From positions 1 to 40,684 of the IMG/VR virus record IMGVR_UViG_3300035663_000032: a stretch of 40,684 nt of DNA. One strand, 5' to 3'. The translations under genes were made by a program, and so were the position numbers. This DNA comes from a virus. This document shows positions 1 to 40,684 of the stretch, one piece after another (position 1 is the first letter of the stretch; each line of letters starts with the position of its first letter). The notes under the pieces were generated by a model, which saw nothing but the letters and a program-made list of their open reading frames with translations, was not told the origin of the DNA and ran no database searches.

Positions 1-2
1 AG

Positions 3-938
3 ATTCAATCGAGCGCGTACGTCACCCAAGACATGACCGTGCTTTCGGAGCATGTGACGCGGATCTCTGGAATCACTCAGCTTGCCTGGCACAAGGAGCC
101 GTATTCGGTGGTGTGGTGCGTGCGCGAGGATGGCCGGTTGCTGGGGTTCACCTACAACACCGAGCAGGATGTCACCGGGTGGCACGTTCACAGCATCGCG
201 GGCGGCTTGTTCGCGGTGGAGAGCGTCACGGTGATTCCGACGCCCGGCAAGGAGGCTGACCAGCTGTGGATGATTATTCGCGATGACACCTCTTCAAAGC
301 GCTGGGTGGTCTACCTCGAGACCGAAGAGCTTGCGGCTGCGTTTAACTTCTACGTGGATGTGGGCCTTTCGTACAACGGAGCGTCCACGGCGGCAGTATC
401 TGGTCTGGGCCACCTTGATCTGACCTACTTCGCAGGCGCTGGGCTGACGCTGGATTACGACTGGCTGGGGGTGGTCGCTGATGCGGCCGTTCCATCCTAC
501 ACGATTACCGGCGCGGGCACATTGACCCTTGGCCGGGCTGCTGAGGTGATTTCTGTCGGCATGAATTACCCGAGCGTGATGGTTCCCACTGCCTTTGAGG
601 CGGGCGGCGGCGATGGCACTTCCCAAGGAAAACAGCGACGCACCACCAAGGTGGCGTTCCGTTTCCATGAGACGCAGGGAGGGCAATGGAAGGGGGCTGG
701 CAGTCAGCAGGACGCCGAGGCTTCCGACTGGAACCGGTTCTCGTTCCCTCGCAGCTCAATCAACGGCACGCCGACCGGATTGCGGATGGACACGGCCCCA
801 ACGCTGTTCACCGGGATCGTGGTGCAGGACTGGGAGGGCGACTACGTGCTCGAAGATCCGATGACCATCCGCCAGGCGGAACCGTTTCCGATGACCATCG
901 TGGCCATCATGCCGCAATTCACAGTTTTCGACCGATGA
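3..938 (+). CDS. Tail tubular protein B (gp12-like), C-terminal part, phage A
   Basis: The 5' end lies outside the window; the reading frame is open from base 3. The visible ~311 residues match the C-terminal third of the complete 924-residue protein at 35776-38550, with seven substitutions over the 301 residues after the first in-frame Met (for example Phe/Leu near the AALNF segment and Gln-Asp-Ala versus Asn-Asp-Gly). T7 gp12-type proteins form the nozzle of the short tail. The stop overlaps the next gene start as ATGA, so the two are probably translationally coupled. The ATG at base 33 is internal and not a true start. Confidence 0.88.
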   Translation: MQSSAYVTQDMTVLSEHVTRISGITQLAWHKEPYSVVWCVREDGRLLGFTYNTEQDVTGWHVHSIAGGLFAVESVTVIPTPGKEADQLWMIIRDDTSSKRWVVYLETEELAAAFNFYVDVGLSYNGASTAAVSGLGHLDLTYFAGAGLTLDYDWLGVVADAAVPSYTITGAGTLTLGRAAEVISVGMNYPSVMVPTAFEAGGGDGTSQGKQRRTTKVAFRFHETQGGQWKGAGSQQDAEASDWNRFSFPRSSINGTPTGLRMDTAPTLFTGIVVQDWEGDYVLEDPMTIRQAEPFPMTIVAIMPQFTVFDR

Positions 939-1366
939 CCATTGAACCCCTCATTGCTGACCACGTGATGAAGGTTTTGCTCCAGCCTTCACAGGCGTGT
1001 TTCGCTTCGTCCATAGACGCCGAGTACGCGAACAGGCTGGTGGTGTCTGGCCCCGCGTTTTCAGCGATTCACAACGGGGAGGTGCTGGCGTGCGCCGGAC
1101 TCATTCCGCAGTGGGAAGGGCGCGCGATAGCCTGGGCGCTGGTGGCCGCTGAGGCTGGCCCGCATTTCCTGCGCATTCACAAGGCGGCGAAACGGTTTCT
1201 CGACCTACAGAAGATCCGTCGGATTGAAACATGGGTTTACCCGACGTTTGAGCCTGCTCACCGATGGATGCGGCTGCTCGGGTTTAAGCTCGAAGGACGC
1301 ATGACGGCTTACGGGCCGGATGGATCAGGCGGAGACCTTTACGCAAGATTATGGGACAAGCAATAA
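935..1366 (+). CDS. gp13-like internal virion protein with GNAT fold, phage A
   Basis: A 143-residue protein. The order tail tubular B, then a short GNAT-like protein, then gp14/15/16-like genes matches T7-group phages, where the gp13 family (formerly DUF2833) belongs to the acetyltransferase clan. Visible GNAT-like features are the central segment around ALVAAEAGPHFLRIHK and the C-terminal RWMRLLGFKLEGRM, which resembles the last GNAT strand-helix. It starts at the ATGA overlap with tail tubular B. Its homologue at 38547-38987 has three extra C-terminal residues because the following gp14 cassettes differ. Whether it acetylates anything is unknown; in T7 gp13 the role is in virion assembly. 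Confidence 0.75.
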   Translation: MTIEPLIADHVMKVLLQPSQACFASSIDAEYANRLVVSGPAFSAIHNGEVLACAGLIPQWEGRAIAWALVAAEAGPHFLRIHKAAKRFLDLQKIRRIETWVYPTFEPAHRWMRLLGFKLEGRMTAYGPDGSGGDLYARLWDKQ

Positions 1367-1992
1367 AACCTATTGCAGGGGCGGTGCTTGGAGCTGCCGT
1401 TGGAGCCGCCGCAATTTATTTCAGCGGAGGCGCAGCCACGCCGATGGTAATGGCTGCTCTTACGGGCGCATCAGCTGGCGCTGGCGCTGGAATGCAAATG
1501 AACGCGGCCGACCAAAAGGCGCACGCGGACAGGAATCAAGCCATCGCTGAAAAGCAGGCCAACGAGTACAACGCCACGGTTCTTCGTAACAATGCCGCCG
1601 CTGAAAACGACGCAGCCACGCAAAGGGAGGCCGCCCAACGGTTCCGCATCCAGCAAGCAGAAGGGCGAGCTCGCACCGTTGCGGCTGAGTCTGGATCCGG
1701 GATGGATGGCTCCAACTGGGATCTGATGCGACAGAACGCGGTTCAGGGCGAGCTGGACGTGTTGAATGTGCGTCATGCCGGCCGGGGTGCGGCTGACGGA
1801 CTGTTGTCTCAAGCGAACCTTCAGGACTACCAAGGGCAGGTGGCGCGTATGCGGCAGGCTCAGGCGGTGCAGGCTGGGCGAACAGCACAGGTGACTGCCG
1901 CGATCAACGGCGTCAGTAGCATTTATGGGGCTGGAGTGAAGTCGGGCGCATGGGGCGGCGGCGTGAAGCCAACAACTGTGAGCGGAGGTTAA
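1351..1992 (+). CDS. gp14-like internal virion/ejection protein, phage A allele
   Basis: A 213-residue Ala/Gly-rich protein. Residues ~1-50 hold two hydrophobic Gly/Ala-rich segments (AGAVLGAAVGAAAIYFSGGA and a second around MVMAALTGASAGAGAG). A charged, Gln/Ala-rich, probably helical body follows from ~52 to 170. In T7, gp14 is ejected first and forms the outer-membrane part of the DNA conduit, which suits membrane-active N-terminal segments. It overlaps the previous gene by 16 bp. The C-terminal end (AWGGGVKPTT then SGG) is shared with the phage B allele at 38963-39520, while the N-terminal half is strongly diverged, as after cassette exchange. Confidence 0.7.
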   Translation: MGQAIKPIAGAVLGAAVGAAAIYFSGGAATPMVMAALTGASAGAGAGMQMNAADQKAHADRNQAIAEKQANEYNATVLRNNAAAENDAATQREAAQRFRIQQAEGRARTVAAESGSGMDGSNWDLMRQNAVQGELDVLNVRHAGRGAADGLLSQANLQDYQGQVARMRQAQAVQAGRTAQVTAAINGVSSIYGAGVKSGAWGGGVKPTTVSGG

Positions 1993-1995
1993 TTT

Positions 1996-4122
1996 ATGGC
2001 CGGACTATCAGCATACCTCGGACAGACACAGGCGGTCGCGGCACAGATGCCGACCATGCAGGCGGCTCGGATGCCGGACGCCTCGGGCGCGGACGCGACA
2101 GCGCGGCTTGGCACGGCGTTGTACGGAGTCGCGGATCAGATCGCCACGTACGAGCACAACAAGCAGGTGCAGTGGGCCGGGAAGACCTACGCGGACGCGG
2201 CAAGCAAATGGTACACGCGCCTGGAACAGCTTAAACAATCTGCGGGCGACGGGGCTCCGAACTTCGTAGAGAACCTCCAGGGTGAGTTTCAGAAGTTCCG
2301 CGCCGAGACACTCGCGAGCACCAAGAACCATGTTGCCAAGCAGTTCTTGGACGAGAAGTTCACGGGCTTGAATGCGGACTTGAGCCGACAGGCGCTCCAC
2401 TTTCAGGCACACGCTCAGGTGCAGCAGTCCGAGAACAACATCGAGCAGACGGTGAACACGCTTGGAACAAGCGCCATGCCGTACGAGTCCAAGGTGGACG
2501 CCCTGAACGGGGTAGTGGACACCTCCACGCTTCAGGCTGGGTATAAGACGGCCTACAAGATGAAGGCGCGCATTGCCCTCGCGAAAACGCAGGGGATGCA
2601 GGAGATCGAGCGAGACCCGCAAGCCGTGTACGACATGCTCAAGGGGCGCATTGTCGGGGAGCTGGGCGAACCTTCGCTTGATCCCACGAACATTCAGCGC
2701 CCGTCATGGGTGGATGACCTGCCAATGCAGGAGCGGCTTTCGTTGGAGTCTCATGCGCTCTCGCGCTCGCACCAACGGACCGGCCAGCTGCGAGCGGGCG
2801 TTGAGAACAAGGCGAACGATCACGAAGCGCGGTTCCTTCAAGGGCTCCCGGTGGCGGAGCCTATGACGAAGGTGGACTTTCAAGCGGCATACCGGCCCGA
2901 AGAGGTGGAGCCGAAGTGGGCGCAGTATGTGACACGGCAACAGCTCGGGGCAGACATCCAATCGATGGGGGCGATGTCGGCCGGGGATATTGCGGGCGTG
3001 CTACAGAAGACCCGCACTGAAATGGAGGCGGCCACGGAAGGTCAGTCGGTCGCGTTTGTGGATCGGTACAACCGGACACTGGAGGCGGCTAAACGTATTC
3101 AGCAGGCTCGGGAGAAAGACCCGATGGCAGCGGCGCTGCAAGGCCAGCTGTTTGGGGTAGAGTCTTTGGACTACTCGGACCCCGTGAAGTTTAAGGACCA
3201 GATGGCAGCCAGGCAGGCTGCGGCTATCCGCATTGGGGCCGAGTGGGGAGTTGATTCCGGCCCTCTATCCAAGGATGAGGCTTCCAAAGCGTCCGCGTTT
3301 CTGGCGTCGGCTGGGGTTGCTGACCAGATGCAGTATCTGCATCGCGTAAAGGGGGCACTCACAGACCCGAAGGTGTACGGCGCAGCAGTGAAGCAGATTG
3401 CCGAGGGGAACCCTGTGGTGGCTGCTGCTGGACACATTTTAGGGCAAGACCGTGCGGCAACAGTGGCCCCGGCTGGGTGGTTGAGTTCGTCTCAGCAACT
3501 CGCTCCGCAGATTGTCGCCTCCAGGATGCTTTCCGGGCTCGCGACTATGCGGGAGAGCAAAGATGTGTTCAGTCCCGTGGCTGACCGAGTTTTTCAGGGG
3601 CAGTTCTGGGCAGAGGTTGGCGATGCACTGCCAAGCAACCCGGTCGCAGCGCAAGCCATGTACCAAAGCGCGAAGGCCTACGTGGTCGGGAAGCTGTCAC
3701 AGGAGGGGAATCTGAATGCGCTTTCGGAAGGATTTATTGGAAAGGCCGGCACTGTGAGTGGCGAGTTGGCGAGCGAGGCTGTGCGCGCTGTCACGGGCGG
3801 GATTGCCACGGTGAACGGGCACAAGGTTATCCCTCCTTATGGGGCGGACCCGTTGCAGTTCGAGCCGTTGGTCCGAGCTGAAACCAAGCGCATCCTCACG
3901 GAGGCTGGGGTGCCCGCAAAGTCCCGCCTGCTCCCTTTTGAGCAATACCGGGTGATCCCTGGAGGAGGCCAAAACCGGTACATGCTCACGGCCGGCGGAC
4001 AGACGCTGATCAACCCGAAGACGCAGGAGCCTGTGATTCTCGATTTCAACAACCCGAAGGCGTGGGAGCTACCCAAGCCAGCAGAGTGGCCAAGAGACCA
4101 GATCAACACCATCGGCTACTAA
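1996..4122 (+). CDS. gp15-like internal virion/ejection protein, phage A
   Basis: A 708-residue, mostly helical protein, close to T7 gp15 (~750 residues) in length and position between gp14-like and gp16-like genes. It is rich in Ala, Gln and Lys with no signal peptide or clear TM segment. Gp15-type proteins are ejected into the periplasm and join the DNA-translocating channel. Its start has an AATTTATG context without a Shine-Dalgarno sequence, four bases after the preceding stop. The phage B version begins at 39524 and is nearly identical. The assignment rests mainly on synteny and size. Confidence 0.68.
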   Translation: MAGLSAYLGQTQAVAAQMPTMQAARMPDASGADATARLGTALYGVADQIATYEHNKQVQWAGKTYADAASKWYTRLEQLKQSAGDGAPNFVENLQGEFQKFRAETLASTKNHVAKQFLDEKFTGLNADLSRQALHFQAHAQVQQSENNIEQTVNTLGTSAMPYESKVDALNGVVDTSTLQAGYKTAYKMKARIALAKTQGMQEIERDPQAVYDMLKGRIVGELGEPSLDPTNIQRPSWVDDLPMQERLSLESHALSRSHQRTGQLRAGVENKANDHEARFLQGLPVAEPMTKVDFQAAYRPEEVEPKWAQYVTRQQLGADIQSMGAMSAGDIAGVLQKTRTEMEAATEGQSVAFVDRYNRTLEAAKRIQQAREKDPMAAALQGQLFGVESLDYSDPVKFKDQMAARQAAAIRIGAEWGVDSGPLSKDEASKASAFLASAGVADQMQYLHRVKGALTDPKVYGAAVKQIAEGNPVVAAAGHILGQDRAATVAPAGWLSSSQQLAPQIVASRMLSGLATMRESKDVFSPVADRVFQGQFWAEVGDALPSNPVAAQAMYQSAKAYVVGKLSQEGNLNALSEGFIGKAGTVSGELASEAVRAVTGGIATVNGHKVIPPYGADPLQFEPLVRAETKRILTEAGVPAKSRLLPFEQYRVIPGGGQNRYMLTAGGQTLINPKTQEPVILDFNNPKAWELPKPAEWPRDQINTIGY

Positions 4123-4133
4123 TTTCCCCGCTC

Positions 4134-7100
4134 ATGAGCTTCTTTTTTGATTTCAGTCCTCAGGACAAACAGACCTCGCTCGATTTGGCGCAGATGAATC
4201 CGCTACCAGATCCGGGGACACGTCCCGATCCCAGCTTCTGGAATGGTATGGGCTGGAATGGGGAGGGCGCGATTCTGCCCACCTTTGTGCGACAGGGGGC
4301 ATTGGGGGCACTGGATAATGTGGAGCAGTTCGGCGCGGATATGTTGAGCCGCGGGCTCGATATGATCCCGGGCAAAATATCCGGCACCTTGCAGGGGTAC
4401 GTTCAGAAAGCGGACGCACGCTGGAGAGATTTCAGCGCGCAGGTGAAGGCGCTGGACATGGCCCCGGAGGATTTTGGGTTGGCGACACAGATCACCTCGG
4501 GCTTCATCAAGGTGGCCTTGGAAATGGGCGCAACGCGCAGCCCTGCGAGCGCATTCACCACGGTGGGCTTACTTGAAGGCAACGCCGCCGAGAACGATGC
4601 AGTAGCGCGTGGGGTGGACAAGCAGACGGCAAGCGAGGTTGGCCTTGTTACTGGGCTTTCTGCTGCCGCTGGGGTTGTTCTCCCATACGCCAAGGCGGGA
4701 CTGACGGCCCTTCAGAACGTTGGGTTTGGGGCTACGGTAAATACCGCGTTCGGCATCGCTGGCAGGGCGGGAACCTCAGAGGTCTTGCGGGCGAACGGGT
4801 ATCCCGAGATGGCGGATCAGATCCGAGCCTTCGACTTGGCATCCGTCCTTGTGGACGCTGGGATGGGCGCGGGATTTGGGGTGCTTGGGCACTACATGCA
4901 CAGCGACAACCCCGGCATGATTGCGCGCGCACTGGAGGCGCGGGACGCCGGGCTAACGCTCACTGAGGCGGCGGCAAGGCACCTACGGGCACCGGGATCC
5001 ACGCCGGATTCTCCTGCATCCATTCCCGCCAATTTTGAGGCGCGGGCCAACGTGCTCGAGAATTCTGCGAGGTTTGAGGAGTTGGCCACCCGGGGCGATG
5101 AAGATCGTTTCCAGCCTATCCCTCCGCCTGAAGGGGCTGAATTTGTGGAGCGGAAACCCAACACCGAAGCCATGGCGGCGCTAGAAGCGGCACTAGAGGA
5201 GATGGGCCCGACCCCGCCAAAAAAGGTGCAGGCGAAAGATTTCAAAGAGTGGTCATTCAACGAGGACCCTCTGGTTCGGTATCTTGTGGATAACCTTGGG
5301 GGCCTGATGTCCAAGTCCGGCTATCGAGCAAAGCACGGGAAGGAGAAGCTGGCTCGGAATAGTGAGCTTTGGGAGGCGGCCTCCAAGCTGGAGAACCCGC
5401 GCCATAATGAGATTTTCAAGAAGAACGGGCTCACTCCCGACGAAGCGGTGACGGCGTTGGCTGAGGCTGGCTTTTTGCCACACGACGCACACGTGGATCA
5501 GCTTTGGGAGGCATTGAGGCAAAAGTCGGCGTCTGACATGGAGCTGTCCAGGCAGGCCACCGGAAGGGCTGCTGACATCAATGAACAGGCGATAGCCGAG
5601 TACGAGAAGGCGCAAGATCCGGCCACATACGCCGAGACGGCTGAAGAATCGGCCGCGAACGCGCGAAAGCTGGGCGAGTCGCTGGGAGTGCCGGAAGAGC
5701 AGTACGACGGACTGTATTCAAAGAAGCCCGAAGAGGACATTGGGGCGGAGCTGATGTGGCGCGTGGATAATGATTACGATGCGCTATCCAAACAGTACGC
5801 TGAGCTTGACGACCCACAGCGTGGAATAAGCACGGACGGAGGGCGGATTTTTAACACTGATTACGGGCGGGAATTGTCCGCAGGGTTTCGCGCGGACCGA
5901 ACTCGAGCCCAAGAGGTACACGACGCCGCAAGTTATCTTGTTGGAAAGCTATACACCAAGCGATTGTCTGAGCCAACGCCGGAAGGGAGGGAACCACGCG
6001 TCCTTTTAACTGCTGGCGGAGCTGGCGCCGGTAAGTCCTCGAGTCTTGCTACGTTAGGAGCTAGCGCGGACCGATTTGAGATTATTTACGACACCACGAT
6101 GAGCACGGCATCGTCGGCAATATCGAAGATAACCCAGGCGTTAGAGAGCGGGCGCGAGGTCTCGATTGTTTACACATACCGCGATCCTGTTGATGCGTTT
6201 GTGAATGGCTCACTTCCAAGGGCTATGGAAAGCGGCCGCACTGTCACTGTCGAGGCTCACGCCAAAACACACAGCGGGTCGAGAGAAGTGATCCCGCAGT
6301 TAATAGAGAGGTTCCGAGGGGACGACCGGGTTGACTTTATTGTCGTTGATAATTCACACGGGCCGGATGGCGCCCAGCTTTCTAGTATTGAAAAGCTGCC
6401 GGAGGCGCATGATACTACGCTCGAGGGTACGCTATATGAACGTGCAAGGTCTGAATACGAAGCCGGCAGAATCTCAGAAGCAGTCTACAACGGAACCACG
6501 GGGAAGAGGAGCTTCCGGGATGACGCTCAAGGAGCACACGCTAGCGGCGGCGCAGGAAATGATTCACAGCCTGAATACGCACGCGAGGGAAAGCCATCGC
6601 AAGCTGGAAGCTCAGCGGAACGCGTTGAAGCGGTAACCAGAGAATTAACCGACACAGAAGACGGCAAGGCCGTGCATGAGTCGGGGCTTGTTTCTGTTGT
6701 TTACGACCCTTCCGAGTTTCCAAAGCGATCCGACGGACAAGAGCACGATCCACGCGCGCAGGCCGTATTCCAAGACGGCAAAGTTTATCTCGCTGCCAAG
6801 AACATCGAGCCCGGCCAAGTCCGAGCGTTGCTCCTGCATGAGGTCGGGGAGCATTTCGGAATGGAGCGAATGCTGGGCAGTGAGGTTTACGAGTCGCTTC
6901 TGGCTGATGTGCTGGCAAAGGCCGAGGCTGGGGAGAAGGCGTTTGCGGACGCGTTGGAGGTAGCACGCCGGGCGGATACACCCGAGCGGCACCTTGCCAA
7001 AGAGACCCTGGCTTACCTGATCCAAAATCACGCAGAGCTTGGGCTGGTCCAGCGGATCATCTCGGCCGTGAAGACGTTTGTTCACGGCGCGTTTGGCGGA

Positions 7101-9959
7101 AGGTTTGTGGAGTTGAATGCGGCCGATCTGCGTTACCTTGCCGAAGCGTCCCTTCGGCGTGTGGCGCGGACAGAGGGAGCGTCCCCGGTATCGAATGCGA
7201 CACACTACGCAGCCCAAGACGCACTGGACGCCAAGCACGACTCCGAAAGCCTCTACGCACTCAAGGCGGCCTCGGATGATGTCCGAAAGGAACTCCGGCG
7301 CGGCGGCTCCATTACTAACGCACTGCGGCTGGTCAGTGATGCGGCCGGGCGAAAGCTCACCGTCAGGGAAGCGTCAGGCTTGCGGGAGCGGCTACTGAAG
7401 GCGGCCACATACGTGGATTCTGCCATTGGCTCTCCTGAGATGCGGCTGGAAGCGGCGGCCAAGATGGTAGCGGAGTCGCTTGAGGCGGACGCTGTGCAGC
7501 GGGTGCAAAACGCCATGAAGAACCAGGCGGCAGCCAAGCGTACGGAGGCGGAGTTGGCCACCGTGTTGCGCCAAGGGATTCCGCTCTTTGGGAAACGGGG
7601 CGCGATCATGCGCTTGCTCGGGAATAACTATGACGGCCGGGCCAACGTGCAATCTTTGGAGGCGCACGTTACCGCGAAGCGGAATGAATCACTCCGGAAG
7701 TTCATCAGCCTCTATCATGACAGCGGGAAGTTTCTGGGCTTTTGGGAGAACGTGGAGTTCACCCATGATCTGATTCGGGAGGTGTTCACGCCGGGCTCCA
7801 CGGGGAACGCCAAGGCAGCCGAGGGAGCGAAGGTGTGGGGTGATGTGAGCGCGGATCTTCTGCAACAGCTTCAACAGGCAGGCCGCCCCATCCACGAGCT
7901 TGCCAACTGGGCAATCCCTACAAGCCATTCTCAGATCAAAATTGCAAAAGCAGGGATAGAGGCATGGGTGTCGCGCGTCTTCCCTTTGCTCAAGCGTGAA
8001 CGCTATCGGAACCCGGACGGAACACCGATGACTGACGAGCAGCTTGTGGGCTCACTTTCGCAGGTGTACGAGTCGCTGTCCACGGACGGCATTCTGGGAC
8101 AGGAGGCCGGAGGGAACAGTGGCGCGGCGAACATCGCAGGCCGACGCACTGAACAATCCCGATTCCTGCACTTCAAGGACGGGGACGCGTGGCTTGCGTA
8201 CAACAAAGAATTCGGGGACGGCTCGGTGTGGGTGACAATGCACGGGCACGTCAATTACACGGCGAAGCAGATCGCGCTGATGGAGAAGTTCGGGCCGGAT
8301 GCCAAGGGCAACTTCGCCCGGCTGGTGGACGGAGCCATGAAAGATGCGGCGCGACGCGACCCTGTTCACACCGACAAGATCAAAGAAGAAGCCGCGCTGG
8401 CGCTTCGGTTCATGGATTACCTCGTGGGGGATTTACCTAATCCATCCGCGAAGAATATGGTGAACAAGGTGTTCTCTCTCATCCGCAACACGCTCGTGAG
8501 TGCGCAGCTTGGGAGTTCGGTGATTCAGGGGCTGGGGGATGAGGTGATGCTTCGGGCGTCCGCCGCACTCCATGGAATTGCACAGGGCGAGATTACAAAA
8601 CTCCAAGCCCTTCTTGCTACAAGCGGCGATGCCAGGCACGACGCCATGGCGCTGGGGGCGGCCCTTCAAGACATCGCCCGGGAAACGGCCCGGTTTGGAC
8701 AGGAGACACTCGGCCCCACTTGGTCCAGCAAGATGGCCAACGCGACACTGAAGGTCTCTGGGTTGCACTTTCTGGACACTGTTCGCCGTGGGGCCATCAC
8801 GATGGGCCTTTATTCAAAGCTCGGGCAGCTGGCGAAGAAGCACGCGGACATTGGGGCGCTGGATGCAGACACGAACCGGCACCTACTCAGTCACGGGCTT
8901 ACGCAGGAGAATTGGCAGGCGCTACACCTTGCGGACAGGCACGACTGGCACGGAGTCGAGATCGTGACGCCGGAGGCTCTCGCGGCCCTACCTGATAGCG
9001 CAATCCAGCATCTTGCGGATGCTCGGGTGCAAACCATCGAAACCGCCGCGCTTGCGAAAATTGAGAACATCAAGAAGGCCGCGATGTTGGATGACGCCAA
9101 GAAGACCGAGCTGATCGGGCGGCTTATGAAGGCCACCGAAGCGGAGAAGCTGGGAGTGCATGACGCCATCCGGAACGAGGCGGTGCAGAAGCTGATTTCC
9201 ATCGGGAACATGGAAGAGGGGGCCGTGGTGCCGACTCCAGGGGCGATCCAGAATTTCAAGATGCAGGACGCCTATCGCGCGGGCACGTGGCGCGGAGAAT
9301 TGGCCCGTACCTTTTTCATGTTCAAGGGATTCGCGATGTCGCACTTCAACACGCAGATGGTGGAGCGTGCTGGGGGAATGCCGACTGTGGGCGGGAAGCT
9401 TTGGTACGGCGCAAAGATAATGGCGCAACTGACCGTTGCGGGAGCGGTGACGCAGATCCTTTCAGACCTGACCAAGGGGAAAGATCCTCGGAACTACCTC
9501 TCTCCAAACTCGCCGCATTTAATTCAAAACTGGATTGCTGCGGCGCTTCGCGGTGGGGCGCTCGGGCTGTACGGGGATCTTCTTTTTGCGGACGAATCCC
9601 GGCACGGACACAGCCCGGTCGCGGCCATGATGGGGCCGGCCGTTGGGCTGATTGAAAACGTGCTGGACCTCACCGTGGGCTCAGCGCACCGAATCGCTTC
9701 GGGGAAAGATCCTCACGTTGGAGCGAAGGCAATCAGCACACTGAAGAACATTGTCCCCGGGCAGAACCTTTGGTTCTCGCGCCTGTTTTTGGATCACCTG
9801 CTTGTTCACAACCTACAGGAGGCGGCGTCGCCCGGCTACATGTCCCGGATGAAGCAGCGCTCCCAGCGCTTTAACGGGCAATCGTTTTGGTGGCAGCCAG
9901 GAGGGCTTACGTCCCCAATGCGACCGCCCGACCTCTCGACGGTGGCCGGAAGCAACTAA
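4134..9959 (+). CDS. Giant gp16-like ejection protein with zeta-toxin-like kinase module (polyvalent protein)
   Basis: A 1941-residue protein in the place of T7 gp16 (~1318 residues). I chose the ATG at 4134 because it lies just after the gp15-like stop; an upstream in-frame ATG at 4062 would overlap by 61 bp. Order: hydrophobic Gly/Ala-rich segments (~115-260); charged helical region; Walker A GGAGAGKS at 628-635 followed by YDTTMSTASSAISKIT and a YTYRDPVDAFV segment, as in zeta-toxin-type P-loop kinases; HEVGEH at 902-907 (HExxxH, like the degenerate zincins of phage polyvalent proteins); long helical C-terminal half; membrane-like segments after ~1740. No lytic transglycosylase motif was recognised at the N-terminus, unlike T7 gp16. 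The gene presumably encodes a protein ejected with the DNA. Kinase activity is inference. Confidence 0.75.
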   Translation: MSFFFDFSPQDKQTSLDLAQMNPLPDPGTRPDPSFWNGMGWNGEGAILPTFVRQGALGALDNVEQFGADMLSRGLDMIPGKISGTLQGYVQKADARWRDFSAQVKALDMAPEDFGLATQITSGFIKVALEMGATRSPASAFTTVGLLEGNAAENDAVARGVDKQTASEVGLVTGLSAAAGVVLPYAKAGLTALQNVGFGATVNTAFGIAGRAGTSEVLRANGYPEMADQIRAFDLASVLVDAGMGAGFGVLGHYMHSDNPGMIARALEARDAGLTLTEAAARHLRAPGSTPDSPASIPANFEARANVLENSARFEELATRGDEDRFQPIPPPEGAEFVERKPNTEAMAALEAALEEMGPTPPKKVQAKDFKEWSFNEDPLVRYLVDNLGGLMSKSGYRAKHGKEKLARNSELWEAASKLENPRHNEIFKKNGLTPDEAVTALAEAGFLPHDAHVDQLWEALRQKSASDMELSRQATGRAADINEQAIAEYEKAQDPATYAETAEESAANARKLGESLGVPEEQYDGLYSKKPEEDIGAELMWRVDNDYDALSKQYAELDDPQRGISTDGGRIFNTDYGRELSAGFRADRTRAQEVHDAASYLVGKLYTKRLSEPTPEGREPRVLLTAGGAGAGKSSSLATLGASADRFEIIYDTTMSTASSAISKITQALESGREVSIVYTYRDPVDAFVNGSLPRAMESGRTVTVEAHAKTHSGSREVIPQLIERFRGDDRVDFIVVDNSHGPDGAQLSSIEKLPEAHDTTLEGTLYERARSEYEAGRISEAVYNGTTGKRSFRDDAQGAHASGGAGNDSQPEYAREGKPSQAGSSAERVEAVTRELTDTEDGKAVHESGLVSVVYDPSEFPKRSDGQEHDPRAQAVFQDGKVYLAAKNIEPGQVRALLLHEVGEHFGMERMLGSEVYESLLADVLAKAEAGEKAFADALEVARRADTPERHLAKETLAYLIQNHAELGLVQRIISAVKTFVHGAFGGRFVELNAADLRYLAEASLRRVARTEGASPVSNATHYAAQDALDAKHDSESLYALKAASDDVRKELRRGGSITNALRLVSDAAGRKLTVREASGLRERLLKAATYVDSAIGSPEMRLEAAAKMVAESLEADAVQRVQNAMKNQAAAKRTEAELATVLRQGIPLFGKRGAIMRLLGNNYDGRANVQSLEAHVTAKRNESLRKFISLYHDSGKFLGFWENVEFTHDLIREVFTPGSTGNAKAAEGAKVWGDVSADLLQQLQQAGRPIHELANWAIPTSHSQIKIAKAGIEAWVSRVFPLLKRERYRNPDGTPMTDEQLVGSLSQVYESLSTDGILGQEAGGNSGAANIAGRRTEQSRFLHFKDGDAWLAYNKEFGDGSVWVTMHGHVNYTAKQIALMEKFGPDAKGNFARLVDGAMKDAARRDPVHTDKIKEEAALALRFMDYLVGDLPNPSAKNMVNKVFSLIRNTLVSAQLGSSVIQGLGDEVMLRASAALHGIAQGEITKLQALLATSGDARHDAMALGAALQDIARETARFGQETLGPTWSSKMANATLKVSGLHFLDTVRRGAITMGLYSKLGQLAKKHADIGALDADTNRHLLSHGLTQENWQALHLADRHDWHGVEIVTPEALAALPDSAIQHLADARVQTIETAALAKIENIKKAAMLDDAKKTELIGRLMKATEAEKLGVHDAIRNEAVQKLISIGNMEEGAVVPTPGAIQNFKMQDAYRAGTWRGELARTFFMFKGFAMSHFNTQMVERAGGMPTVGGKLWYGAKIMAQLTVAGAVTQILSDLTKGKDPRNYLSPNSPHLIQNWIAAALRGGALGLYGDLLFADESRHGHSPVAAMMGPAVGLIENVLDLTVGSAHRIASGKDPHVGAKAISTLKNIVPGQNLWFSRLFLDHLLVHNLQEAASPGYMSRMKQRSQRFNGQSFWWQPGGLTSPMRPPDLSTVAGSN

Positions 9960-35779: not shown

Positions 35780-38550
35780 AGGTTTCCCCCGTCAAATCGA
35801 GCTTCAACACGGGGGAGGTTTCGCCGCTTCTCTATGGGCGCACCGACATTGCGAAGTACCAAAACGGGTGCTTTGAGCTCACCAATTTTATTCCCACGGT
35901 GCAGGGCCCCGCTCGTCGGCGTCCAGGCACGCGTTACGTGGAGGACGTCAAAGACCCGTCCCAGCGCACGTGGCTTGCCAAGTTCGAGTTTAACACTTCG
36001 CAGGCGTACGTACTGGAGTTTGGGCACCAGTACATTCGATTTTATACGCAGGGCGGGCAGCTGCTGGACACAGGGGTGCCTGTGGAGGTGGCAACGCCCT
36101 ACACGAGCGCATCACTGACGACGGCTGACGGCACGTTTGCCTTGGATATGGTTCAGAGCGGGGACGTGCTTTATGTCGTCCATCCCTCATACCCGCCGTA
36201 CAAGCTCCAGCGGTTCAGCAACACCAGTTGGACGTTCACTCAGATCGCTTTCACCAACGGCCCCTTCGTCACAGAGAACACGGATCGAACTGTCCAATTT
36301 TACGCAACAGGGAGCACCGGGTCAGTCACGATCTATGGAGTCCCGGGGCTAACCTCGGGCGGGGTTTATCCTAAATTTGCCACGGGAACCTACTTGCGGT
36401 TGGCCGTGCAAGACTTGAGCGCAATCAAGCCATGGGGGGCAGGGCAGGAGATTGCCGCGGATGGGAACGTGCCCAACCCGCTGGGTATTTACCGGCGCTC
36501 TGATGGAAAGACGTACATCTGCAAGACCAATGAAACCTGCGGGACTGGGAAAACAATGCAGTGCGGAGGGGATACGCCAACGCACACTTATGGGACGCAG
36601 TCGGATGGCGGAGGGCGCGCTGTCTCGGGAACGATCGTCCAGCGCCAAGGCGTGGATTGGGAATTTTTGGATGAAGGGTGGGGGTATGTGCTTATTACTG
36701 GGAATACGACCGCCACGGCTGGAACTGTTGGCGCGATAACCAATGGAAGCGCGGCGGTTGTCTGTGGTGGCTCGTCGCAGCTGCGCGAGGGGGATAATCT
36801 TTCTGGGACAGACATTCAGCCCGGAACGCAGGTTGCCAGCGTTACGGATGGGGCTGGCTTTATTATGACGCTCCCAGCCACAGCGACGAATGCGACTGCG
36901 GCGATCACCTATTCTCGGACAACGATCACCGGCACAGTCCAGGGATCGACCGCCCTTCCGTTCGCTTTAGTTGAGCAGACTCAGAATGGCTCGGTGACGT
37001 CGGCAAGCGCGGTGGTCACGGGGTTGTCGAGCACCGCGAATCTTTTCATTGGGATGAGCGTCCGCGGCTACGGGGTGCCAGCGGGAATCACTATCAAGAG
37101 CGTTGACTCGCCCACCCAAATCACCCTTTCCGCTGTGGCGTCCAGGACTGGCGCTTTTTCGCTGCGGTTTGTACAACCCACGTTCCGGTGGTCGCGTGGA
37201 GCGTTTAACTTGGCAGACGGGTATCCGAGCGCGGTGACGTTCTTCCGGGAGCGGCTAACGTTTGCGGCCGGCCAGAAGCTGTACTTCAGCGCTGCGGGCG
37301 ACTTTGAGAACTTCAACGCCTACAACGCATCCGGTAACGTCACCGCGGCACAAGCGATTCAGGCCACGATTTCGAGTGATCAGGTCAACCAGGTGCAATG
37401 GTTAGCGCCACAGCAGGCGCTTATCATCGGCACGGCTGGCGGGGAGTTTGCGTGTCTGGAGAATTCCACTCAGGACCCGTTCGGCCCGGGGAATGTGAAG
37501 ATCGAACAGCACTCCGCGGACGGTTCCCGGAATGGTGTCCGGCCCGTGCGTGTGGGCAATGCGACTCTGTTTGTGCAGCGGTCTGGGAAGAAGGTGAAGG
37601 AGTGTACCTTCAAGATTCAATCGAGCGCGTACGTCACCCAAGACATGACCGTGCTTTCGGAGCATGTGACGCGGATCTCTGGAATCACTCAGCTTGCCTG
37701 GCACAAGGAGCCGTATTCGGTGGTGTGGTGCGTGCGCGAAGATGGCCGGTTGCTGGGGTTCACCTACAACACCGAGCAGGATGTCACCGGGTGGCACGTT
37801 CACAGCATCGCGGGCGGCTTGTTCGCGGTGGAGAGCGTCACGGTGATTCCGACGCCCGGCAAAGAGGCTGACCAGCTGTGGATGATCGTGCGGGATGATA
37901 CGTCCTCGAAGCGCTGGGTGGTCTACCTCGAGACCGAAGAGCTTGCGGCCGCGCTCAACTTTTATGTGGATGTGGGCCTTTCGTACAACGGAGCGTCCAC
38001 GGCGGCAGTATCTGGTCTGGGCCACCTTGATCTGACCTACTTTGCAGGCGCTGGGCTGACGCTGGATTACGACTGGCTTGGGGTGGTTGCTGATGCGGCC
38101 GTTCCATCCTACACGATTACCGGCGCGGGCACGTTGACCCTTGGTCGGGCTGCTGAGGTGATTTCTGTCGGGATGAATTACCCGAGTGTGATGGTTCCCA
38201 CTGCCTTTGAAGCGGGCGGCGGCGATGGCACTTCCCAAGGCAAACAGCGACGCACCACCAAGGTTGCGTTCCGTTTCCATGAGACGCAAGGCGGGCAATG
38301 GAAGGGCGCTGGAAGTCAGAACGACGGCGAGGCTTCCGACTGGAATCGGTTCGTGTTTCCTCGCAGCTCGATGAACGGCACGCCGACCGGATTGCGCATG
38401 GACACGGCCCCGACGCTGTTCACCGGGGTCGTGGTGCAGGACTGGGAGGGCGACTACGTGCTCGAAGATCCGATGACCATCCGCCAGGCGGAACCGTTTC
38501 CAATGACCATTGTGGCCATCATGCCGCAATTCACCGTTTTCGACCGATGA
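35776..38550 (+). CDS. Tail tubular protein B (gp12-like nozzle), phage B
   Basis: A 924-residue protein. N-terminus SPVKSSFNTGEVSPLLYGRTDIAKYQNGCFELTNFIPTVQGPARRRPGTRYV is the classic tail tubular B start. The middle has Thr/Gly/Val-rich insertions (~280-470). The PSAVTFFRERLTFAAGQKLYFSAAGDFENF segment and the C-terminal third complete the match. It forms the hexameric tail nozzle. I chose ATG 35776 at the ATGA overlap rather than 35758. The 3' third is duplicated at 3-938 in phage A. Confidence 0.92.
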   Translation: MKVSPVKSSFNTGEVSPLLYGRTDIAKYQNGCFELTNFIPTVQGPARRRPGTRYVEDVKDPSQRTWLAKFEFNTSQAYVLEFGHQYIRFYTQGGQLLDTGVPVEVATPYTSASLTTADGTFALDMVQSGDVLYVVHPSYPPYKLQRFSNTSWTFTQIAFTNGPFVTENTDRTVQFYATGSTGSVTIYGVPGLTSGGVYPKFATGTYLRLAVQDLSAIKPWGAGQEIAADGNVPNPLGIYRRSDGKTYICKTNETCGTGKTMQCGGDTPTHTYGTQSDGGGRAVSGTIVQRQGVDWEFLDEGWGYVLITGNTTATAGTVGAITNGSAAVVCGGSSQLREGDNLSGTDIQPGTQVASVTDGAGFIMTLPATATNATAAITYSRTTITGTVQGSTALPFALVEQTQNGSVTSASAVVTGLSSTANLFIGMSVRGYGVPAGITIKSVDSPTQITLSAVASRTGAFSLRFVQPTFRWSRGAFNLADGYPSAVTFFRERLTFAAGQKLYFSAAGDFENFNAYNASGNVTAAQAIQATISSDQVNQVQWLAPQQALIIGTAGGEFACLENSTQDPFGPGNVKIEQHSADGSRNGVRPVRVGNATLFVQRSGKKVKECTFKIQSSAYVTQDMTVLSEHVTRISGITQLAWHKEPYSVVWCVREDGRLLGFTYNTEQDVTGWHVHSIAGGLFAVESVTVIPTPGKEADQLWMIVRDDTSSKRWVVYLETEELAAALNFYVDVGLSYNGASTAAVSGLGHLDLTYFAGAGLTLDYDWLGVVADAAVPSYTITGAGTLTLGRAAEVISVGMNYPSVMVPTAFEAGGGDGTSQGKQRRTTKVAFRFHETQGGQWKGAGSQNDGEASDWNRFVFPRSSMNGTPTGLRMDTAPTLFTGVVVQDWEGDYVLEDPMTIRQAEPFPMTIVAIMPQFTVFDR

Positions 38551-38987
38551 CCATTGAACCCCTCATTGCTGACCACGTGATGAATGTGCTCCTGCAGCCT
38601 TCACAGGCGTGTTTCGCTTCGTCCATAGACGCCGAGTACGCGAACAGGCTGGTGGTGTCAGGCCCCGCATTTTCAGCGATTCACAACGGGGAGGTGCTGG
38701 CGTGCGCCGGACTCATTCCGCAGTGGGAAGGGCGCGCGATAGCCTGGGCGCTGGTGGCGGCTGAGGCTGGCCCGCATTTCGTACGCATTCACAAGGCGGT
38801 GAAGCGGTTTCTCGAGCTCCAGAAGATCCGGCGGATTGAGACATGGGTTTACCCGACGTTTGAGCCTGCGCACCGATGGATGCGGCTGCTCGGGTTTAAG
38901 CTCGAGGGACGCATGACGGCTTACGGGCCGGATGGATCGGACGGAGACCTTTACGCAAGACTATGGGACAAGCTTGGCCATATTTAA
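38547..38987 (+). CDS. gp13-like internal virion protein with GNAT fold, phage B
   Basis: A 146-residue homologue of 935-1366. Differences include Lys/Asn in the first helix, FVRIHKAVKRFLEL versus FLRIHKAAKRFLDL, and a C-terminus ending LGHI instead of Q. The C-terminal change occurs exactly where the gp14-like cassettes diverge. ATGA overlap with tail tubular B. Confidence 0.75.
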   Translation: MTIEPLIADHVMNVLLQPSQACFASSIDAEYANRLVVSGPAFSAIHNGEVLACAGLIPQWEGRAIAWALVAAEAGPHFVRIHKAVKRFLELQKIRRIETWVYPTFEPAHRWMRLLGFKLEGRMTAYGPDGSDGDLYARLWDKLGHI

Positions 38988-39520
38988 CAATGGGAGTTAT
39001 CTCCGGGGCATCCACGGCCTCGGCGATGGATTCGGCCCAGCAGCAGGCCGATGCTCAAGAGGCGCAGGCTAACGCAGAGCGACAGGCGGCCGAGTACAAC
39101 GCGACAGTTGAGCGAAACAACGCGGCATCCGCCCGTGAAGCGACGACGAGACGCGAGGCCCAGCAGCGCTATCAGTCGGAGTTATTGGCAGGGCGCAACG
39201 CGGCGATAGCGGCGGAGTCTGGCGTCGGGATGGATGGGTCTAACTGGGATTTTATGCGCCAGAACGCAGTCCAGGGAGAGCTTGAGGCGCTCAACATTCG
39301 CTTCACGGGGGAGACGCAGGCGCAAGGGTTGCTCGCAAAGGCGCAACAGTACGACATGCACCGAGTCGCGGCCGCGCGCAGTGCAGCGGAGGCGCGCCGC
39401 GCCGGAAAGACTGCGGTTCGAGCTGCCGCCATCAAGGGGGTATCAAACTTCGTTAGCATGGGGATGACTAGCGGCGCATGGGGCGGCGGCGTGAAGCCAA
39501 CAACTATGAGCGGAGGTTAA
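38963..39520 (+). CDS. gp14-like internal virion/ejection protein, phage B allele
   Basis: A 185-residue protein, 28 residues shorter than the phage A allele. It starts MGQAWPYLTMGVISGASTASAM and lacks the two long Gly/Ala hydrophobic segments of the other allele. It shares the central RNNAA...MDGSNWD(L/F)MRQNAVQGEL element and the C-terminal AWGGGVKPTT-SGG. An alternative start is the ATG at 38990 (MGVISG). The role is inferred from synteny. Confidence 0.68.
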   Translation: MGQAWPYLTMGVISGASTASAMDSAQQQADAQEAQANAERQAAEYNATVERNNAASAREATTRREAQQRYQSELLAGRNAAIAAESGVGMDGSNWDFMRQNAVQGELEALNIRFTGETQAQGLLAKAQQYDMHRVAAARSAAEARRAGKTAVRAAAIKGVSNFVSMGMTSGAWGGGVKPTTMSGG

Positions 39521-39523
39521 TTT

Positions 39524-40684
39524 ATGGCCGGACTATCAGCATACCTCGGACAGACACAGGCGGTCGCGGCACAGATGCCAACCATGCAGGCGGCCCGGAT
39601 GCCGGACGCCTCGGGTGCGGAAGCGACAGCGCGGCTTGGCGGGGCGCTGTACGGCGTCGCGGATCAAATCGCCACGTACGAACACAACAAGCAGGTGCAG
39701 TTGGCCGGGAAGACCTACGCGGACGCGGCAAGCCAATGGTACACGCGCCTAGAGCAGCTTAAGCAATCTGCGGGCGACGGGGCTCCGAACTTCGTAAAGA
39801 ACCTCCAGGGCGAGTTTCAGAAGTTTCGCGCCGAGACACTCGCGCGCACTAGCAACCATGTTGCCAAGCGGTTTTTGGAGGAGAAGTTCACCGGGCTGAA
39901 TGCAGACTTGAGCCGGCAGGCCCTGCACTTTCAGGCACACGCTCAGGTGCAGCAGTCCGAGAATAACATCGAGCAGACGGTGAACACGCTTGGAACAAGC
40001 GCCATGCCGTACGAGTCCAAGGTGGACGCCCTGAACAGTGTAGTGGATACCTCCACGCTTCAGGCTGGGTATAAGACGGCCTACAAGATGAAGGCGCGCA
40101 TTGCCCTCGCGAAAACGCAGGGGATGCAGGAGATCGAGCGGGACCCGCAAGCCGTGTACGACATGCTCAAGGGCCGTATTGTTGGGGAGCTGGGCGAACC
40201 TTCGCTTGATCCCACGAATATTCAGCGCCCGTCATGGGTTGATGACCTGCCAATGCAGGAGCGTCTTTCGTTGGAGTCTCATGCGCTTTCGCGCACGCAC
40301 CAACGGACCGGCCAGCTACGAGCGGGCGTTGAGAACAAGGCGAACGACCATGAGGCGCGGTTCCTTCAAGGGCTCCCGGTGGCGGAGCCTATGACGAAGG
40401 TGGACTTTCAAGCGGCATACCGGCCCGAAGAGGTGGAGCCTAAGTGGGCGCAGTATGTGACCCGGCAACAGCTCGGGGCAGACATCCAGTCAATGGGGGC
40501 GATGTCGGCCGGGGCTATTGCGGGCGTGCTACAGAAGACCCGCACTGAAATGGAGGTGGCCACGGAAGGTCAGTCGGTCGCGTTTGTGGATCGGTACAAC
40601 CGGACACTGGAGGCGGCTAAACGTATTCAGCAGGCTCGGGAGAAAGACCCGATGGCAGCGGCGCTGCAAGGCCAGCTGTTTGGG
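39524..40684 (+). CDS. gp15-like ejection protein, 5' part, phage B
   Basis: 387 codons open to the window edge, nearly identical to the first 387 residues of 1996-4122. It starts in the same TTAATTTATGGCC context. Only the N-terminal half is visible. Confidence 0.8.
   Translation, partial: MAGLSAYLGQTQAVAAQMPTMQAARMPDASGAEATARLGGALYGVADQIATYEHNKQVQLAGKTYADAASQWYTRLEQLKQSAGDGAPNFVKNLQGEFQKFRAETLARTSNHVAKRFLEEKFTGLNADLSRQALHFQAHAQVQQSENNIEQTVNTLGTSAMPYESKVDALNSVVDTSTLQAGYKTAYKMKARIALAKTQGMQEIERDPQAVYDMLKGRIVGELGEPSLDPTNIQRPSWVDDLPMQERLSLESHALSRTHQRTGQLRAGVENKANDHEARFLQGLPVAEPMTKVDFQAAYRPEEVEPKWAQYVTRQQLGADIQSMGAMSAGAIAGVLQKTRTEMEVATEGQSVAFVDRYNRTLEAAKRIQQAREKDPMAAALQGQLFG

Follow-up and report, generated by a model that had tools for sequence, protein, structure and literature searches.

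The window analyzed here is the whole of IMG/VR virus record IMGVR_UViG_3300035663_000032 (40,684 nucleotides), and the genes and domains assigned on it below lie on its + strand. Its genes include those for an integrase, RecT, an exonuclease, a DnaC-like loader, a terminase, a portal-type head-tail adaptor and a major head protein; since integrase, recombination and head genes are present together, the phage of the window is probably a temperate podovirus. Genes for a gp13-like internal virion protein (686–1366; phrog_4177 and phrog_308), a gp14-like internal virion protein (1351–1992; phrog_418) and a gp15-like head or ejection protein (1996–4122; phrog_992, E 4e-57), all assigned with the support of synteny, precede a giant gene at 4134–9959, and the order gp12-gp13-gp14-gp15-gp16/17 in the window is that of epsilon15 and phiV10. 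The next ORF, which matches virion structural and tail families, starts at 9956 or earlier and so overlaps the stop codon of the giant gene. The ends of the window (1–3156 and 37613–40684) are near-duplicates with 95% nucleotide identity, its first and last 80 bases each recur as an exact copy at the opposite end, and gp14 differs between the two duplicated ends (53% protein identity); this probably reflects a genome of about 37.6 kb that is permuted or redundant and was assembled from two strain variants.

The giant gene encodes 1941 residues in which an epsilon15-type gp16 and gp17 are joined in one chain, with ~770 residues separating them. From the N-terminus it comprises a gp16-like domain of the epsilon15/phiV10 type (residues 1–290; 4134–5003; phrog_1145, E 2e-22), a stretch with no domain assignment (residues 291–548; 5004–5777), a zeta-type kinase domain, a putative HEXXXH metallopeptidase domain and a gp17-like virion structural domain of the epsilon15 type (residues 1063–1941; 7320–9956; phrog_684, E 2e-179). 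The gp16 part (about 26–42% identity to gp16) matches gp16 of phiV10, epsilon15 and Shamal, and residues 1063–1941 also match gp17 of the same three phages. In epsilon15 and phiV10 the two proteins are encoded by separate genes (gp16 of about 600–640 aa, gp17 of about 825–925 aa). Homology to both gp16 and gp17, together with the conserved gene order, places the product among the epsilon15-type ejection proteins. On the basis of synteny, a review counts epsilon15 as one of the phages that have ejection proteins of this type, and gp15, gp16 and gp17 of epsilon15 have been ascribed to its injection apparatus (PMC12391199). The closest gp17 relatives in genomes lie on proteobacterial contigs, which are presumably prophages. 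For residues 291–548 Pfam gave no match and phmmer detected no relatives in the ORFs of the loci collected by then, and an NCBIfam search of the 1941-aa protein gave no match. A preliminary description of this DNA had placed the protein in the gp16 slot by reference to phage T7; the slot holds in the sense of an epsilon15-type gp16 fused to gp17, and homology to T7 gp16 is rejected, as the protein matches gp16 and gp17 of epsilon15. The SLT domain that forms the N-terminal transglycosylase of T7 gp16 is absent from the 1941-aa protein and present in the slots of relatives. The other sequence features in that description (the ORF and its length, and the two motifs discussed below) were all recovered, and its proposal that an ejection-type protein is polyvalent in architecture agrees with the gp16 and gp17 matches, the synteny and the presence of both kinase and peptidase.

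The kinase domain (residues about 549–800; 5778–6533) is matched by Pfam Zeta_toxin at 34.2 bits (E 2e-8; cut-off 22.3 bits), and a phmmer search of the PDB with the window protein returned gonococcal zeta1 (E 2e-10). An AlphaFold (AF2) model of the domain (pLDDT 92.5, pTM 0.86) predicts a P-loop kinase, and Foldseek aligns this model with the structure of zeta1 bound to UDP-MurNAc (PDB 6eph) at TM 0.78 and E 9.9e-14, the runners-up, AvrRxo1 and classical zeta, following far below at TM about 0.42. In classical zeta toxins the catalytic Asp comes after the P-loop; in the rewired zeta1 it comes before, Asp56 lying ahead of Lys115 (PMC5923241). The window kinase keeps the zeta1 order: in the alignment D576 (5859–5861) pairs with the catalytic base D56, K634 of the Walker A motif GGAGAGKS (residues 628–635; 6015–6038) with K115, and R696 and R702 (6219–6239) with R175 and R181. 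An inactive kinase was suspected at first, as the spacing from P-loop to core in the Pfam match seemed to leave no classical catalytic Asp region; this reading was rejected because the Asp of zeta1 is relocated ahead of the P-loop (PMC5923241). Assignment to the zeta1 subclass of zeta-toxin-class P-loop kinases is thus supported by sequence, fold and catalytic residues, and the zeta-toxin-like kinase proposed in the preliminary description stands.

With the kinase region as a single-sequence query no viral relatives were recovered; a three-sequence kinase alignment as the query recovered 106. In 32 phage kinases with 35–50% identity to that of the window, D576, K634, R696 and R702 are invariant. 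Third-position GC (GC3) is 0.54 over the kinase versus 0.70 in the gp16 part and 0.73 in the gp17 part; within the ORF it is lowest at the kinase. Likewise, the lower GC content noticed earlier at 5820–6680 is real but modest (0.554, within the lowest 2.6% of 861-bp windows of the structural module). The depressed GC3 and the fusion itself are compatible with a recent accident, in which case the insert would be an inert or structural spacer, the decayed remnant of a recombined toxin; we consider this highly improbable, given that the open frame is intact, that every catalytic residue is kept and is invariant across the 32 divergent relatives, and that the domain order recurs in a bacterial contig (L378, below). 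Comparison with gp16 homologues, in which this region is not generally conserved, and the GC3 dip over the kinase agree with the earlier suggestion that the module is an insertion. Zeta kinases are also found elsewhere: several viral contigs (L075, L078, L127 and similar ones) have stand-alone zeta1-class genes of about 290–315 aa ahead of the terminase and portal genes, and a giant protein at L140:4003-9564 combines a histidine phosphatase, a zeta kinase and LPD38.

The residues by which zeta1 contacts the lactyl group of UDP-MurNAc (K59 and N75) are not retained in the window kinase; the K59 position is occupied by an invariant Arg in the phage kinases, and N75 has no clear partner. The substrate is uncertain because these contacts are not conserved, and we commit only to a kinase that, judged from its sequence, would act on a UDP-sugar or a related nucleotide, not to UDP-MurNAc specifically. 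This leaves room for an active, injected kinase that is no wall poison and that would instead target NAD, a nucleotide or a signalling nucleotide, countering host defence or retuning metabolism. The loss of the contacts specific to UDP-MurNAc points in this direction, as do the identity of the next best folds (AvrRxo1 and canonical zeta) and the nature of other cargos in the slot (below), such as ADP-ribosyltransferases and a Tas1-like domain, which act on or use nucleotides; however, the closest fold by far is that of zeta1 with UDP-MurNAc, and the catalytic Asp and the Arg pair are retained, so that we regard a non-wall target as rather unlikely.

The second enzymatic domain (residues 830–1030; 6621–7223) is assigned as a zincin-like metallopeptidase of the kind seen in polyvalent proteins, with the motif HEVGEH at residues 902–907 (6837–6854) and a putative third zinc ligand, E957, at 7002–7004. 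HE.G.H occurs in 86/86 relatives of the peptidase and HEXXH in none, a count biased upward by search patterns that demanded HEXGXH or a neighbouring motif, and H902, E903, G905, H907 and E957 are invariant in 46 sequences. The preliminary description was wrong in calling the metallopeptidase degenerate: HEVGEH is not a decayed HEXXH but an intact HEXXXH, invariant in its family, of a clade of polyvalent-protein metallopeptidases, among which a set with HEXXXH has been described (Iyer 2017, PMC5512222). The predicted structure (pLDDT 87) consists of a helix, three strands, the HEXXXH helix and a Glu helix, a topology that agrees with the description in Iyer 2017 (PMC5512222); comparison of the model with PDB structures gave no significant fold match (best E 1.0). 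The putative assignment as a metallopeptidase rests on motif, family and predicted topology.

The peptidase precedes gp17 in every fused protein from the peptidase search, a set that was itself selected by the peptidase. In two samples for which selection was based on gp17 or the whole protein, it is present in 3/4 fused proteins (L054, L378 and L386) versus 2/193 unfused loci (Fisher p 3e-5, indicative only because the loci are not independent); the whole-protein scan used six patterns, one of them inside the peptidase, which may favour L054. In L389, the remaining fused protein, the N half contains an HEXXH motif. These counts suggest that the peptidase tracks the gp16-gp17 fusion, which is most simply explained if the peptidase cleaves its own protein and would so re-create the gene boundary. 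Cleavage is not assured, because the virion RNA polymerase of phage N4 is packaged uncut although it bears such a domain (PMC5512222). The order zeta-peptidase-gp17 is shown independently by L378, and the idea that this fusion is unique to the window was dropped when that contig was found. In a Rhodoferax contig (L390:3158-6559) the gp17 match is stretched over about 3.4 kb for 877 residues, which suggests an insertion within or close to gp17.

Variation at the gp16 position was followed with a gp17-alignment scan, which is independent of the insert and yielded viral loci in which the complete upstream genes span 206–1456 aa; those with a gp16-like N-terminal domain, for which an HMM was built (an alignment of these domains being too divergent as a scan query), are 354 aa and longer. 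One clade shows a conserved gp16 N-domain of about 300 aa and a conserved C-terminal tail of about 70 aa, with different contents between them: L042 has a minimal gp16 of 400 aa in which the slot interior is absent, L035 carries a zeta kinase in the slot, and L016 and L047 carry an ADP-ribosyltransferase (ART), which is also found in the slots of L011 and L233. In L034, a close relative of L035, the zeta kinase is replaced by a domain (L034:7226-7990) that matches the T6SS effector Tas1, a (p)ppApp synthetase (PDB 6ox6; E 1.2e-12). The flanks of these two proteins are alike (63% over 309 aa in the N part and 75% over 73 aa in the tail), and their interiors align at about shuffled level (score 83 versus a shuffled maximum of 80). 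Other gp16 slots hold ParB, SLT (transglycosylase), or ParB with ART and a PBECR5 RNase. Upstream of gp17 in L012 (5771-8929) lies a gene with a classical-order zeta (Pfam 8-184, E 2e-31), so that two zeta topologies have arrived at one location. A gp16-slot profile gave no match in the PDB, and the fused protein of the window shows no recognisable counterpart of the conserved gp16 C-terminal tail. On the gp17 tree, a quick tree with long branches (that of the window among them), presence changes number at least 8 for zeta, 8 for ART and 11 for ParB, indicating that cargo has been exchanged often. On the basis of these sequence comparisons, the C-terminal half of gp16 in related phages is a variable slot for putative effectors. 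Whether the point extends further is a closer call: we hold only tentatively, at somewhat below even confidence, that in epsilon15-like podoviruses at large this half is a general cartridge slot, from which exchangeable enzymes of antibacterial type (a zeta kinase, Tas1-like synthetase, ADP-ribosyltransferase, ParB, transglycosylase or BECR RNase) would be delivered at entry, with the junction metallopeptidase freeing the cargo from gp17 where the two are fused.

The explanation that we favour for the window, as reasonably probable, is that a temperate epsilon15-like phage encodes a fusion of the ejection proteins gp16 and gp17 bearing an effector cartridge, whose delivery, substrate and effect are what we infer. 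The fused protein would be synthesised late and packaged into the head; the metallopeptidase would cut it in cis near residues 1030–1063, at assembly or at entry, thereby regenerating a separate gp17; and the gp16 part with the kinase would enter the cytoplasm along with the DNA. There the kinase would phosphorylate UDP-amino-sugar precursors (probably at the 4'-OH, like zeta1) or a related nucleotide, so that wall synthesis might be briefly slowed, or metabolism shifted to the benefit of the phage. In the immediate flanks no gene fits an epsilon antitoxin, the upstream neighbour being gp15-like and the downstream ORF overlapping the stop codon. The lack of an immunity gene directly downstream fits late expression with action at entry, and not a role in competition. 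The kinase could alternatively work late in the producing cell, weakening the wall for lysis, with the fusion to a virion protein being incidental; the gene does lie in a structural module with presumably late expression, expressed zeta1 does cause lysis (PMC5923241), and in many viral contigs a zeta gene stands by itself upstream of the terminase. Delivery is nevertheless favoured by insertions that have occurred repeatedly and independently in gp16 specifically, and by the sharing of the slot with non-lytic cargos (ADP-ribosyltransferase, ParB); action in the producing cell appears improbable.

Compared with gonococcal zeta1 (ng_zeta1, PDB 6eph, PMC5923241), the window kinase has the same rewired topology, Walker A Lys, Arg pair and overall fold (TM 0.78); unlike zeta1, it resides in a virion protein, has no epsilon partner in the adjacent genes, lacks the C-terminal OB domain and differs at the lactyl-contact residues. 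With polyvalent proteins (Iyer 2017, PMC5512222) the product shares a zincin-like metallopeptidase of the HEXXXH variant, effector-type enzymes and structural domains. In 2017, kinases resembling zeta were reported from polyvalent and MuF proteins and proposed to ease entry (Iyer 2017, PMC5512222); there zeta occurs in conjugative elements and MuF fusions, whereas here it lies inside an epsilon15-type gp16-gp17 ejection fusion. Gp16 and gp17 of epsilon15 and phiV10 correspond to the N- and C-terminal parts, with the same gene order and a likely ejection role, but they are separate and lack the kinase and peptidase that the fused protein of the window contains. The MuF toxins of temperate phages (PMC5576092, PMC12226406) likewise join a virion-linked N-domain to interchangeable toxins, ART and (p)ppApp synthetases among them. 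In contrast to the C-terminal cargo of MuF toxins, the cargo of the window is internal, between conserved flanks, and unlike most of them it has no immunity gene directly downstream, nor room for one after the ORF; a MuF domain is absent from the 1941-aa protein by Pfam. A literature search, mostly outside subscription papers, found no description of an epsilon15-like gp16 slot or of zeta cargo in it.

If the favoured explanation is true, short-tailed temperate phages turn their DNA-delivery machine into an effector injector, comparable to MuF toxins and contractile secretion systems, and a single gene would reveal what such phages deliver. It would also become testable what use phages have for a wall-precursor kinase at entry, and whether self-processing is what the common polyvalent metallopeptidase does. 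Entering phages may thus deliver interchangeable enzymes into the cell.
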